Shown in pieces: positions 24,107 through 28,838 of a stretch of DNA of 30,499 nt. The number at the start of each line of letters is the position of its first letter. The first letter of the stretch is position 1. Origin of the DNA: an uncultured Atopobiaceae bacterium (lineage in GTDB: Bacteria; Actinomycetota; Coriobacteriia; Coriobacteriales; Atopobiaceae); NCBI GenBank assembly GCA_944321005.1, contig CALUJT010000001.1:1-30499 (forward strand), read 5' to 3'. The notes beneath the pieces were generated by a model. That model was not told where the DNA came from. It did not search any database and saw nothing but the letters and a program-made list of their open reading frames with translations. Both the position numbers and the translations under genes were made by a program.

Positions 24107-25909
24107 ATGAGCACCTGGGACGACGTCGACCTGAACGCCTTCTATCGTGGCGAGGACCCCGAGTGCTGGCGCTGGATGGGGGCGCGGCCGGGAGCCGACG
24201 GGGTGGACTTTCGCGTCTTTGCGCCCGGCGCGCGCAACGTCTCTGTGCTCACGGGCGGCCGCGAGCTTCCCATGGCGCGCGCCCTCAACGGATGCTTCTT
24301 CGAGGCGCACGTCCCCGGCGCACGGGTGGGCGATGCCTACGAGTACCGCGTCCAGGGCGCGGACGGGAGCCGCCGGGACCACGCGGACCCGTTCGCGCTT
24401 GCCTCCGAGCTCAGGCCGCAGCATCGCTCCGTGGTGAGCGACGTCCTCTCCCACCCGGCTCGGTGCGTGACGGGGCGGGACGCATGCTTCGACAGGCCGA
24501 TGAGCATCTACGAGGTCCACGCGGGCTCGTGGAGAAAGCCCGGCGGCGCCAACGCCGAGCCGGACGCGTGGTACACCTACGACGAGCTAGCCGACCGGCT
24601 GGTTCCCTACGTGCGCGAGCTGGGGTGCACGCACGTGGAGTTCCTGCCGCTCGCCGAGCACCCCTTTGACGGCTCGTGGGGCTACCAGGTGAGCGGGCCC
24701 TTCTCGCCCACGCGCCGCTACGGCGAGCGGGGGCAGCTCGTGGCCCTCGTGGACCGTCTGCACGAGGCCGGGGTCGGGACCATCCTGGACTTCGTGCCCG
24801 TGCACTTTGCCACGGACGCCTGGGCGCTCGCCAACTTCGACGGGACCGCGCTCTACGAGTACCCCAACGACGCCGTGGGCGTCTCCGAGTGGGGCAGCCA
24901 CAACTTCATGCACTCGCGCGGGGAGGTGCGCAGCCTCCTGCTCTCCGCGGCGGACCTCTGGCTGGGCGTCTACGGGTTTGACGGGCTGCGCCTGGACGCG
25001 GTGAGCCGCATCGTCTACTGGCAGGGGGACGAGAGCCGCGGCGTCAACGGCATGGGAGTCGGCTTCCTGCGGACGTTCTGCGACGTGCTGCACGCGCGCC
25101 ATCCCGGGTGCGTGCTCATAGCCGAGGACTCGAGCAGCTTTCCGGGCATCACGCGGCCCACGGCCGAGGGTGGGCTGGGCTTTGACTACAAGTGGGACCT
25201 CGGCTGGATGCACGACACGCTCTCGTACTTCCAGGCGCCCCCGGAGGAGCGCCGGAACGTTCCCGGGCGCCTCACGTTCTCGATGATGTACTACGGGGAC
25301 GAGCGCTACCTGCTGCCCCTCAGCCACGACGAGGTGGTGCACGGCAAGGCCACGATCGCCCAGAAGATGAACGGAGGCTACGAGCGCAAGTTTCCCCAGG
25401 CCCGCGCGCTCTACCTCTACATGGTCGCGCATCCCGGCAAGACGCTCGACTTCATGGGCAACGAGTTCGCCCAGCTCCGCGAGTGGGACGAGACGCGCGA
25501 GCAGGACTGGTGCCTGCTGGACTTCCCGGTTCATGACGCGTTTCTGCGGTTTCGCCGCGAGCTGGGGGCGGCGTACCGCGCCCACCCCGCCCTGTGGGAG
25601 CGTGACTACGAGCGGGACGGCTTCACGTGGCTCGACTGCGAGCAGCGGGAGCCCTGCTGCTGGGCCATCCTGCGCAGCGGCGGAGGGGAGTGCGTGGCGG
25701 CGCTGCTCAACTTCGACGACGAGGCTCATGCGTATGAGGTTCCGCTCCCGGCGGAGCTCTCTGGCTGCGAGGTCGAGGTTCTTCTCGATACGGACTGGCA
25801 GCGCTTTGGCGGCTCGACGCCGGACGGCACCACGGTCTGCGCCGCGCGCGGCAAGATCCTCACGGCGGAGATCCCGCCTCTCTCCGGGATGCTCGTGCTC
25901 CTCGCGTGA
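24107..25909 (+). CDS. glgB: 1,4-alpha-glucan (glycogen) branching enzyme
   Basis: This 600-residue GH13 enzyme forms alpha-1,6 branches. An N-terminal CBM48-like domain spans about residues 25-110 (VDFRVFAPGARNVSV). The catalytic barrel shows nucleophile D297 (DGLRLDAVS), acid/base E340 (LIAEDSSSFPGIT) and transition-state D408 (LPLSHDEVVHGK). FMGNEFAQ...EW is also typical of branching enzymes. It lacks the extra N1 domain of the longer E. coli type. GGGAGGGG precedes the ATG. No other glycogen genes adjoin it; control by the divergent TetR protein is suggested by the operator-like dyads. Confidence 0.93.
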   Translation: MSTWDDVDLNAFYRGEDPECWRWMGARPGADGVDFRVFAPGARNVSVLTGGRELPMARALNGCFFEAHVPGARVGDAYEYRVQGADGSRRDHADPFALASELRPQHRSVVSDVLSHPARCVTGRDACFDRPMSIYEVHAGSWRKPGGANAEPDAWYTYDELADRLVPYVRELGCTHVEFLPLAEHPFDGSWGYQVSGPFSPTRRYGERGQLVALVDRLHEAGVGTILDFVPVHFATDAWALANFDGTALYEYPNDAVGVSEWGSHNFMHSRGEVRSLLLSAADLWLGVYGFDGLRLDAVSRIVYWQGDESRGVNGMGVGFLRTFCDVLHARHPGCVLIAEDSSSFPGITRPTAEGGLGFDYKWDLGWMHDTLSYFQAPPEERRNVPGRLTFSMMYYGDERYLLPLSHDEVVHGKATIAQKMNGGYERKFPQARALYLYMVAHPGKTLDFMGNEFAQLREWDETREQDWCLLDFPVHDAFLRFRRELGAAYRAHPALWERDYERDGFTWLDCEQREPCCWAILRSGGGECVAALLNFDDEAHAYEVPLPAELSGCEVEVLLDTDWQRFGGSTPDGTTVCAARGKILTAEIPPLSGMLVLLA

Positions 25910-26005
25910 CAAAGGGGCGGGGCGCGCGTCCCCGAAATGTTTCAAGAAGGAGTCTCTTCTCGCCGAGCCGCGACGCCTGGCCTACACTCAGCCACGTCAG
26001 ACAGC

Positions 26006-26024
26006 CGCGGGCCAATAGCCCGCG
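26006..26024 (+). promoter_or_regulatory. Hairpin at the start of the argG leader region
   Basis: CGCGGGC-CAATA-GCCCGCG is a perfect 7-bp stem 14 nt before the leader ORF ribosome binding site. A possible -10 (TACACT, 25983-25988) lies just upstream. Confidence 0.35.
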
Positions 26025-26054
26025 CCCGCTCAACTACTGAGGAGGCCAACGTTG

Positions 26055-26153
26055 ATGAACGTTCGCAGCGCACGCGCGTGTGCCGCCTCCTCCCAGCTCG
26101 CCCGACGCCAGAACCGACGAATCACGCCCGCGATGTCGCGCGTGACGCTCTAG
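26055..26153 (+). CDS. Arginine-rich leader peptide of argG (putative attenuator)
   Basis: This 32-codon open frame begins at ATG 26055 with a strong TGAGGAGG at 26038-26045. It ends 98 nt before argG. The peptide contains seven Arg residues (positions 4, 7, 17, 18, 21, 22, 29), including the pairs RR at 17-18 and 21-22; three of the codons are CGA. There is no signal peptide or domain. Its position before an arginine-biosynthesis gene, the Arg clustering and the downstream alternative pairings (26131-26140 with 26192-26201, against the terminator at 26188-26205) suggest translation-dependent attenuation. Known leader peptides of this kind are described for his, trp and other operons. For argG this is inference. 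Confidence 0.6.
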   Translation: MNVRSARACAASSQLARRQNRRITPAMSRVTL

Positions 26154-26187
26154 CTTGACGGTTCTTCTTCACAGACCGAGCTTCTGC

Positions 26188-26215
26188 GCCCCGCGACGTC
26201 GGGGCATTCTTGTGT
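26188..26215 (+). terminator. Putative attenuator terminator before argG
   Basis: GCCCCG (26188-26193) pairs with CGGGGC (26200-26205) across CGACGT, followed by ATTCTTGTGT. Its 5' arm and loop can instead pair with CGATGTCGCG at 26131-26140 (nine Watson-Crick pairs and one G-U). Confidence 0.5.
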
Positions 26216-26251
26216 AGGCGCATCCAACACCCAGAGCGAAAGGGAAACATC

Positions 26252-27481
<1,230 letters not shown>

Positions 27482-27483
27482 CC

Positions 27484-27512
27484 TGTAAATTGGGGACTGT
27501 CCCCAATTTACA
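27484..27512. repeat. Perfect 29-bp REP-like palindrome
   Basis: TGTAAATTGGGGAC (27484-27497), a central T, then GTCCCCAATTTACA (27499-27512) form a perfect inverted repeat immediately after argG. The GGGGAC core recalls the REP-like repeat at 19497-19545. Confidence 0.75.
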
Positions 27513-27531
27513 TACGCGATTTGCGCTCGAG

Positions 27532-27565
27532 CGGCCTGCCGGGTCTCCCCCGACAGGCCGTTCTT
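27532..27565 (+). terminator. argG terminator
   Basis: CGGCCTGCCGGG (27532-27543) pairs with CCCGACAGGCCG (27549-27560) apart from one mismatch, with a 5-nt loop and TTCTT tail. Confidence 0.7.
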
Positions 27566-27579
27566 GTGGAAGCGCCGAG

Positions 27580-27659
27580 AATTAACGTACTTTGGTTTTC
27601 TGAAAACGAAAACTCAACTGGGCTTTTATCGGTTTTCAGGAAACCAAAGTACGTTAATT
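27580..27659. repeat. 80-bp AT-rich inverted-repeat element (MITE-like)
   Basis: Two 28-bp arms (27580-27607 and 27632-27659) match as inverted copies at 27 of 28 positions, around a 24-bp centre. Ends read AATTAACG...CGTTAATT. The left arm contains the perfect short palindrome GTTTTC-T-GAAAAC. It lies between argG and the 3' end of the convergent nuclease-like gene. Confidence 0.8.
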
Positions 27660-27708
27660 ATCCGCCGCACCGGGGTACGGCGCGCGACGGCTCTTTCTCA
27701 TCTGCGGC

Positions 27709-28806
27709 TTAATAGTTTCCGAGCGAGGTTCTGGAGGTTCCTGGTAGCAGGGAGAGGAGGAGTCCTCGCCTTTTGCGCACGTTCTCAGGGCTCCATGCCT
27801 GGGAAGATGCGAGCTGGGAAGAGGGCGGACCGCCGAGTCGTTCAGATGCCATAAGCGCCTCCAAGACGACCGCGTCGAGTCCGTCGGGCTGATATAGGTC
27901 TTCGGAGACAATTGGCATGATGACTCGCCCCTGTGCCGCGAGTTCTCGGTCTCTTCTGCGGTCGTCAACGTACTTTTCTCGAATATCCGTGAGATGCAGC
28001 CGAAGCTTGCTTTCGTTCTTCGCGATATCGGGGATGGCGTCCAGGCTGAGGTGGTCCTTTCCGTCATAGTTAAACCCCACGGGAAGATCCTCCAGCACGA
28101 TGTCGGGCACGCGTGAGGTCTTGCAGCCGCGTCGGACGAGCTCTGCCGGGGTTTCTTGGCGCACGTTCATGTGAAGACCTCCGAGCTCATAGCCGCTTTC
28201 AGAAACGGGTCGAGCCATAAGTAGCGCGCAGACGGATTCCGTTGAGGACCAGGCGTTGTCGTGGACGTATTTCAGCGCATGGAGAGCGGGATGGGTTCCC
28301 AGGATCCTGTGGCATTTCCCGATGAATGATCGTATGCCGTTGACGCTCGTGACCGCTTCGAGACCGTGCGTGACGGTTCCACAGCGTGGATTGGACGGAT
28401 CGCGTGAGAACGATCCGCAGAGCTCGTGCCCGAGGAGCTCGACGGCGGCGGGGTGCATGATTCGGGTGAGCTCAATGAAGAGCAGCTCGGGACAGGGGAT
28501 GACAAAGTTGTCGCTGATTTGGAGGAACGAGCCAAACGGGAGCCCCGAGGAGTAGATGGTCGTTTCGAAGAAGGACGCTCGCGGCCGAAGCTCCTGCGAG
28601 GGTACGGCGACATAGACTTTGTTTGACGTGTTTGGTGGGCCCGGGAGACCTAGAAGCTCATGCGGGAAGAGGCGTCCGGTCCATCTTTTCTGGGGAGAAC
28701 TGTCCGGCTCTGGCAGACCACAGACTTTCGCATGAGAAAACTCTCCCGTTCGCCTGACGTGCCGCAGAAGAGCGAGAGCGGACAGCATGTTGAGGCATAT
28801 CAGCAT
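27709..28806 (-). CDS. Vsr/DUF559-like endonuclease-fold protein (PD-(D/E)xK type), function unknown
   Basis: This 365-residue protein starts at ATG 28806, preceded by GAAGGGGG; a GTG at 28821 is an alternative. An N-terminal part of unknown fold is followed by a C-terminal region that fits Vsr-like nucleases: SSTESVCALLMARP (E190), GYELGGLHMNV, then VPDIVLEDLPVGFNYDGKDHL with D235, D248 and H252 in the usual spacing. Similar proteins are frequent in Coriobacteriia, to my knowledge, and are uncharacterised. The gene is visibly AT-richer with fewer GC-ending codons than argG and argH on either side. Its orientation opposes both. A promoter TCGACA-17-GATAAT lies at 28852-28880 and a hairpin over its ribosome binding site. 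Defence or selfish activity is speculation. Confidence 0.65.
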   Translation of the reverse strand: MLICLNMLSALALLRHVRRTGEFSHAKVCGLPEPDSSPQKRWTGRLFPHELLGLPGPPNTSNKVYVAVPSQELRPRASFFETTIYSSGLPFGSFLQISDNFVIPCPELLFIELTRIMHPAAVELLGHELCGSFSRDPSNPRCGTVTHGLEAVTSVNGIRSFIGKCHRILGTHPALHALKYVHDNAWSSTESVCALLMARPVSESGYELGGLHMNVRQETPAELVRRGCKTSRVPDIVLEDLPVGFNYDGKDHLSLDAIPDIAKNESKLRLHLTDIREKYVDDRRRDRELAAQGRVIMPIVSEDLYQPDGLDAVVLEALMASERLGGPPSSQLASSQAWSPENVRKRRGLLLSLLPGTSRTSLGNY

Positions 28807-28808
28807 AA

Positions 28809-28838
28809 CGACCCCCTTCACCTCAGTGATGGGGGTCG
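28809..28838 (-). promoter_or_regulatory. Hairpin sequestering the nuclease-gene ribosome binding site
   Basis: CGACCCCC (28809-28816) and GGGGGTCG (28831-28838) form a perfect 8-bp stem with a 14-nt loop. In the minus-strand transcript one arm contains the GGGGG Shine-Dalgarno of the gene starting at 28806. Confidence 0.55.

Follow-up and report, generated by a model that had tools for sequence, protein, structure and literature searches.

A probable ribosome-mediated transcription attenuator with conserved arginine codons upstream of argG in Atopobiaceae

Arginine genes are the textbook case of repression by ArgR. What, then, is the role of a short Arg-rich open reading frame (ORF) and a GC hairpin lying in front of argG in an uncultured Atopobiaceae bacterium? 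The window, by which we mean the whole stretch of DNA analysed, comprises 30,499 nt of an 85% complete draft genome (G000; 294 contigs totalling 2.24 Mb). A first-pass annotation had proposed that the region before argG is an attenuator, and direct reading located all of the parts it had named: a 32-codon ORF with its Shine-Dalgarno (SD) sequence, Arg pairs, a terminator, and a T-rich tail. The features, all on the + strand, are as follows.

25983..25988, +, putative -10 element TACACT (from the sequence; TATAGT stands at the same place in other clade members)
26006..26024, +, 7-bp hairpin near the likely 5' end of the transcript (stem kept in relatives)
26038..26045, +, SD sequence of the leader ORF, TGAGGAGG (sequence and in-frame conservation)
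26055..26153, +, leader peptide ORF of 32 codons, MNVRSARACAASSQLARRQNRRITPAMSRVTL (ATG at 26055, TAG at 26151-26153)
26085..26092, +, possible anti-SD sequence GCCTCCTC inside the leader ORF, complementary to the SD region GAGGAGGC at 26039-26046
26103..26108, +, first conserved Arg pair, codons 17-18, CGA CGC (codon conservation)
26110..26116, +, segment B, AGAACCG, which can pair with B' at 26159-26165
26115..26120, +, second conserved Arg pair, codons 21-22, CGA CGA, the last ribosome positions with the modelled terminator off
26131..26140, +, C1, 5' strand of the predicted antiterminator, CGATGTCGCG (complementarity and swap test)
26159..26165, +, segment B', CGGTTCT, just past the leader stop, partner of segment B
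26188..26205, +, predicted intrinsic terminator hairpin GCCCCG-CGACGT-CGGGGC, 6 bp, all GC (consensus scan)
26192..26201, +, C1', 3' strand of the predicted antiterminator, CGCGACGTCG, within the terminator hairpin (pairing conserved)
26206..26215, +, T-rich tail of the terminator, ATTCTTGTGT (from the sequence; 5 T in 8)
26252..27481, +, argG, argininosuccinate synthase, the presumed regulated gene (Pfam PF00764 and PF20979; ATG at 26252)

Taken by itself, the hairpin at 26188-26205 is unremarkable, because the consensus scan of 25000-28500 returned four terminator-like sites versus a mean of 1.9 in shuffled sequences. The consensus scan of the same interval gave no promoter, the putative -10 region included, and Rfam covariance models gave no match at 25900-26300 with E values up to 1. 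The competing pairing described in the first-pass annotation is present: 26131-26140 and 26192-26201 form 10 bp, one of them G-U, and the RNAalifold consensus prolongs this helix by GCCC at 26126-26129 with GGGC at 26202-26205. The 7-bp hairpin at 26006-26024 sits between the putative promoter and the leader SD, and its stem has changed on both sides in relatives (e.g., CGCGGGC/GCCCGCG, CGCAGGC/GCCTGCG, and CGCGAGC/GCTCGCG). CCTCCT occurs within the leader ORF of every unique sequence in the window's clade (23 of 23), and two reading frames are used; its complementarity to the SD perhaps limits re-initiation on the leader.

The window's argG is 96 to 100% identical to the 22 best loci (L001-L022), which are mostly named Olsenella or Thermophilibacter and include the argG locus of Thermophilibacter provencensis (L007). 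The window's family is taken to be Atopobiaceae on the strength of L007, whose lineage is Atopobiaceae and whose coordinates coincide with those of family genome G188. The set of 81 argG loci consisted of 80 from relatives plus the window's own, of which L073 and L080 were dropped for lack of the argG start. Of the 79 loci examined, 49 have the Arg-pair motif, in full or degenerate form, upstream of argG. Conservation of the reading frame was assessed in 79 unique leader sequences (70 plus nine from g40, a genus of a second family). A start codon with an SD opens the frame of the motif in 77 of these, compared to 0 and 1 of 79 for the other two frames; in the remaining two sequences (L064 and L148), GGGGAGG is found farther from the ATG. 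The motif itself, RRQxRR, retains all four Arg residues in 73 sequences, three in 5, and two in 1. The peptide outside RRQ-RR is variable, including its N-terminal part, the residue between Q and RR can be N, D, G, M, A, S, or I, and the leader stop falls anywhere from +21 to +63 relative to the first Arg codon. The leader ORF and its two Arg pairs are thus conserved as elements. The window's leader has seven Arg codons, at residues 4, 7, 17, 18, 21, 22, and 29 of the peptide; pairs 17-18 and 21-22 are kept in relatives, while codons 4, 7, and 29 are not conserved.

Conservation extends to the codons. Among the 70 unique sequences, the first Arg position is CGA in 64, the second is CGC, CGT, or CGA in 69, the third is CGA in every sequence, and the fourth is CGA in 47 and CGT in 23. 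Arg at the four motif positions is encoded solely by CGA, CGC, or CGT in all 70. CGA is rare elsewhere: in 20 ORFs of the window, selected on their GC content by codon position, it accounts for 25 of 600 Arg codons (4.2%; CGC 58%, AGG 16%, CGG 13%), and it is absent from the 101 Arg codons of four genes (argG, argH, and two neighbours). The tRNA-Arg anticodons seen in the draft genome were ACG, CCG, and TCT (30 of 38 tRNA loci scanned). CGA, CGC, and CGT are all decoded by the tRNA-Arg with anticodon ACG, so the conserved control codons address a single isoacceptor. The distance from the first CGA to C1 is also constrained, at 26 to 27 nt in 58 of the 70 sequences; in the other 12 the register is unchanged, and the stop codon overlaps C1. 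The first 36 alignment columns are free of gaps in 48 sequences.

A GC hairpin was found by script in 69 of the 70 unique sequences, with none in L217; the hairpin was set by hand in L049, L064, L077, L147, and L217. In 16 of the 70, fewer than four T occur in the nine bases after the hairpin, and termination is doubtful there. Twenty-three unique sequences have the same terminator loop as the window, and in every one of them a 9-bp core of the competing helix is complementary; two of the 23 carry a double change from C-G to T-A, and a G-U/G-C difference also occurs. In L009, L012, and L079, which are truncated, the register of the pairing is displaced, as judged from the sequences and, for L009 and L012, from duplexes. 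Other clades have longer, composite antiterminator helices, such as that of L074 at -35 kcal/mol.

The main statistic was a partner-swap test on 28 representatives of 80% identity clusters with 5,000 permutations, in which each strand was confronted with the partners of the others. For the C strand and the terminator, the native mean was -28.25 and the swapped mean was -22.50, and none of the 5,000 permutations was as low. When the same partners were paired with an unrelated upstream part of the leader, 4,857 and 3,195 of 5,000 permutations were as low. The antiterminator and terminator strands therefore co-evolve. The pairing of B with B' was matched in 28 of 5,000 swaps, which gives moderate support to a protector pairing. 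Covariation in the alternative stems thus holds well for C1 and C1' and less well for B and B'. Outside the set of 23, an ungapped count gave 67.5% paired positions compared to 61.8% in shuffled sequences (2 of 2,000 as high; three sequences that could not be anchored were left out), a weak difference because bulges, differences in loop length, and a crude anchor that misplaced some sequences all blunt an ungapped count; for this reason we relied on the duplex swap test. RNAalifold applied to the mixed set returned few pairs, since the folds are alternative and their spacing varies.

How the position of a ribosome would affect these folds was modelled by deleting, for every codon in turn, the RNA that a ribosome there would cover (13 nt, counted from the A-site codon's first base) and computing the probability of the terminator stem, P(terminator), at equilibrium, with co-transcriptional order ignored. 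In the window, P(terminator) was 0.00 at the four conserved Arg codons and 0.00 to 0.03 at any codon through CGA at 26118. It then rose to 0.18 with ATC at 26121 in the A site and to 0.70 with ACG at 26124, and it was 0.94 to 0.98 from CCC at 26127 to the stop. The run of conserved Arg codons thus stops just at the point where the modelled switch turns, in line with the earlier proposal that a ribosome stalled at codons 21-22 would favour antitermination and one at the stop termination. When the window's spacer was shuffled with its dinucleotides kept, 3 of 300 shuffles switched as sharply in the model. Because a modelled stall at any earlier codon also opens the switch, arginine specificity rests on codon content.

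The folding models were extended to relatives after dropping L064 and L217, which have fewer than four terminator stem pairs; 68 of 70 unique sequences and 26 of 28 representatives were kept. For the 26 representatives, mean P(terminator) was 0.31 with the ribosome stalled and 0.86 with it at the stop, a difference of 0.55. With the spacer shuffled and its dinucleotides kept, the difference was 0.04 (sd 0.06; maximum 0.14), the same four stall positions being used for real and shuffled sequences; the result was the same, with a maximum of 0.15, when the shuffles had two stall positions and the real sequences four. Footprints of 11 and 15 nt gave differences of 0.57 and 0.51. In 43 of the 68 unique sequences, P(terminator) was more than 0.2 higher at the stop than at the last Arg codon, and in none was it lower by that much. 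The 25 sequences without such a rise are all outside the window's clade. Most of them favour the terminator throughout, and L038, L042, and L224 have it off even at the stop. These 25 are neither counter-examples nor support; they do not count as the former because an equilibrium model ignores co-transcriptional order. With no ribosome on the RNA, P(terminator) in the window was 0.00, and on that basis the modelled switch looks default-on in the window's clade, with one exception (L018, 0.82).

We consider it very likely that the region is a ribosome-mediated transcription attenuator of the trp/his type that controls argG and senses arginyl-tRNA. RNA polymerase would transcribe the short leader ORF and then at once the intrinsic terminator. 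When arginyl-tRNA is scarce, a translating ribosome would stall on the RRQxRR codons, the limiting species very probably being the ACG-anticodon tRNA-Arg that reads CGA, CGC, and CGT. C1, just ahead of the stalled ribosome, would then stay free and pair with C1', that is, with the 5' arm and loop of the terminator, and the polymerase would read on into argG. When arginyl-tRNA is plentiful, the ribosome would reach the stop codon and cover C1, the terminator would fold, and transcription would end. Translation of the leader, operation of the switch in living cells, and charged tRNA-Arg as its signal are our inference.

In the window's family, argG was found in 119 of 140 genomes, and upstream DNA was assessed in 117 of these (G416 and G292, in which argG is partial, and the extra argG copies of L235 were left out). 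The leader precedes argG in 74 of the 117, from 13 genera, variants with other Arg pairs do so in 3 (L170, L176, and L214), and no leader stands before argG in 40. In several leaderless genera, argG directly follows argR. In two loci of genus g13 (L149 and L154), a putative -10 element TATAGT lies close to the start codon of a leaderless argG, as if the leader had been deleted.

Genome-wide searches suggest that the element is not used elsewhere. A first class-wide pattern, which contained a degenerate position, was too loose (matches in 324 of 396 genomes) and was abandoned. A stricter pattern matched 57 of the 396 genomes once each, 56 times upstream of argG and once within a long open frame (G131), compared to two matches in 396 genomes for the reversed pattern as a control. 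Comparison of coordinates placed all 52 matches within the family upstream of argG. Beyond the family, the stricter pattern picked up four g40 genomes, in all of which leader, terminator, and argG are present. A covariance model built from 48 sequences, which match by construction and include none from g40, detected the leader in 9 of 11 sampled g40 genomes, with argG downstream in all nine. This model gave exactly one strong match per genome in 71 genomes (E of 6e-10 or better), 62 of them in the family, upstream of argG by coordinates, and nine in g40. The next-best match (E of 2.6e-5) was a g20 variant, also at argG, and the rest were weaker; some family genomes with truncated leaders (G033, G304, and G346) were missed. 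With one strong match per genome, the leader element appears to belong to argG alone. The leader motif was absent from all 10 argC upstream regions fetched.

Four readings compete with attenuation. One is chance, by which GC-rich DNA would yield Arg-rich short ORFs and GC hairpins; matches to the motif with one mismatch are common in the window's genome, at 22 places in all, and some terminator-like sites would arise at random. The 56 argG-linked matches of the stricter pattern against two for its reversal, together with the frame and swap tests, bring the probability of chance close to nil, conservation having already refuted it: judged from the sequences, the recurrence of ORF, Arg pairs, terminator, and competing pairing in relatives is more than chance. 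A functionless relic beside an argG promoter controlled by ArgR would be hard to reconcile with a frame, codons, and co-evolving stems kept across 13 genera, and we regard it as highly improbable, even though ArgR (PF01316) is encoded both in the window's genome (C109:6017-6169) and in 116 of the 140 family genomes. The first-pass annotation had seen no convincing ARG box, and indeed neither TGCATA nor TATGCA occurs at 25909-26251. Such hexamers do occur in 7 of the 10 argC upstream regions (L251, L253, L254, L256, L258, L259, and L260), while that of the window's own genome (L249) has neither a hexamer nor the leader motif. ArgR acting on argC and attenuation acting on argG would fit the relatives, and arginine could act also through ArgR. 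Among family genomes, at least one hexamer occurs in 11 of the 74 with the leader and in 9 of the 40 without it, and among named loci the counts were 7 of 47 and 15 of 30. We do not claim a clean exchange of ARG boxes for leaders, as the hexamers do not separate leader-bearing from leaderless argG; for lack of such an exchange in the genome counts, the scan is neutral with respect to double control.

Two further alternatives were weighed. RRQxRR could be an arrest peptide that stalls the ribosome in concert with a small ligand such as arginine, ornithine, a polyamine, or an antibiotic. Near invariance of the RRQ-RR amino acids would fit a constraint on the peptide as well, leaders of antibiotic resistance genes can carry an Arg-Leu-Arg motif (PMC8632094), and the fungal arginine attenuator peptide (AAP) stalls at the stop codon when arginine is high (PMC11550727). 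Because a stall at the stop at high arginine would here also favour the terminator, the direction of the response does not by itself decide against arrest. What makes arrest unlikely is the variable residue between Q and RR, the variable remainder of the peptide, a stop at anywhere from +21 to +63, which is ill-suited to arrest at a fixed distance, and the conservation of codons and not merely of residues, CGA at the third position in 70 of 70 sequences above all. Arrest leaders of the AAP and erm type are marked by constraint on the peptide rather than on the codons, which is not the pattern seen here. Alternatively, the leader could report translation stress in general, any slowing opening the terminator and arginine being one signal of many, as the model would allow, since it has the terminator off wherever the ribosome stands before or on the last conserved Arg codon. 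A general sensor is decidedly unlikely, because the final permissive positions are precisely the ones that keep Arg codons and because the strong matches examined precede argG.

Attenuation by arginyl-tRNA can be compared with known systems. In the trp and his attenuators, tandem cognate codons, an intrinsic terminator, and a mutually exclusive antiterminator are combined so that ribosome position decides, with a protector hairpin in addition, and such ribosome-mediated control is known for a number of amino acids. The argG leader has tandem codons of its own pathway, a terminator, an exclusive antiterminator, and a choice predicted to be set by the ribosome. It differs in having Arg instead of Trp or His codons, in a 5' antiterminator strand that overlaps the end of the leader ORF or its stop codon, in a protector hairpin that is weak or absent in the window's clade, and, relative to trp, in a terminator that is modelled off even without a ribosome.

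For Actinobacteria, a 2005 survey (Seliverstov et al., PMC1262725) predicted that trp, trpS, and leuS are attenuated, that ilvB has leader peptides together with terminators, and that cys has leader peptides. It reports no conserved RNA structures upstream of arginine operons, and the word Coriobacter does not occur in it. Elsewhere, leader peptides are described whose Arg codons sense arginine in other ways. The Salmonella speF leader orf34 resembles the argG leader in being a short ORF with consecutive Arg codons, two of them, at which pausing in low arginine alters the downstream RNA fold (PMC6386406); it differs in its HIRRT core and in its target, ornithine decarboxylase, which it controls by way of Rho, RNase G, and the ribosome-binding site of speF, with no intrinsic terminator. 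The Staphylococcus aureus leader peptide rbfL likewise uses rare Arg codons, AGA and AGG, as a sensor of arginine limitation (PMC13009471), but its action is translational: the paused ribosome blocks the start site of rbf, a biofilm regulator, and lowers expression, with no terminator switch. The fungal AAP (arg-2/CPA1) is encoded, like the argG leader, by a short arginine-responsive upstream ORF before an arginine biosynthetic gene, but it is eukaryotic, and the nascent peptide and high arginine block translation by a stall at the stop, with no terminator (PMC11550727). The word arginine is absent from the main text of PMC2965389, and among the matches listed in open-licence PMC full text, none was an arginine leader-peptide attenuator with an intrinsic terminator.

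The sequence evidence argues strongly for a trp/his-type attenuator with a new amino acid specificity, arginine, in gut bacteria of the Olsenella/Thermophilibacter group. It seems probable, with more reserve than for attenuation as such, that this is the first arginine-specific ribosome-mediated transcription attenuator, that it senses the charging of tRNA-Arg(ACG) through near-invariant rare CGA codons, that ArgR is left to the early arginine genes, and that the switch is default-on in the Thermophilibacter clade. A conserved arginine attenuator in this family would fill a gap beside the textbook view of ArgR and the negative result of the 2005 survey. The leader would be a simple predicted marker of argG control in these Coriobacteriia, and it may also report naturally on how far tRNA-Arg(ACG) is charged, the predicted sensor being the rare CGA codons.

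Two further observations concern argG. In the window, a 370-amino-acid ORF without a Pfam match (27709-28821, - strand) lies between argG and argH, and the two genes are not adjacent. In genome G217, a small 3.7-kb contig carries extra argG copies or fragments besides the chromosomal one (L235, G217:C2:1532-2160).
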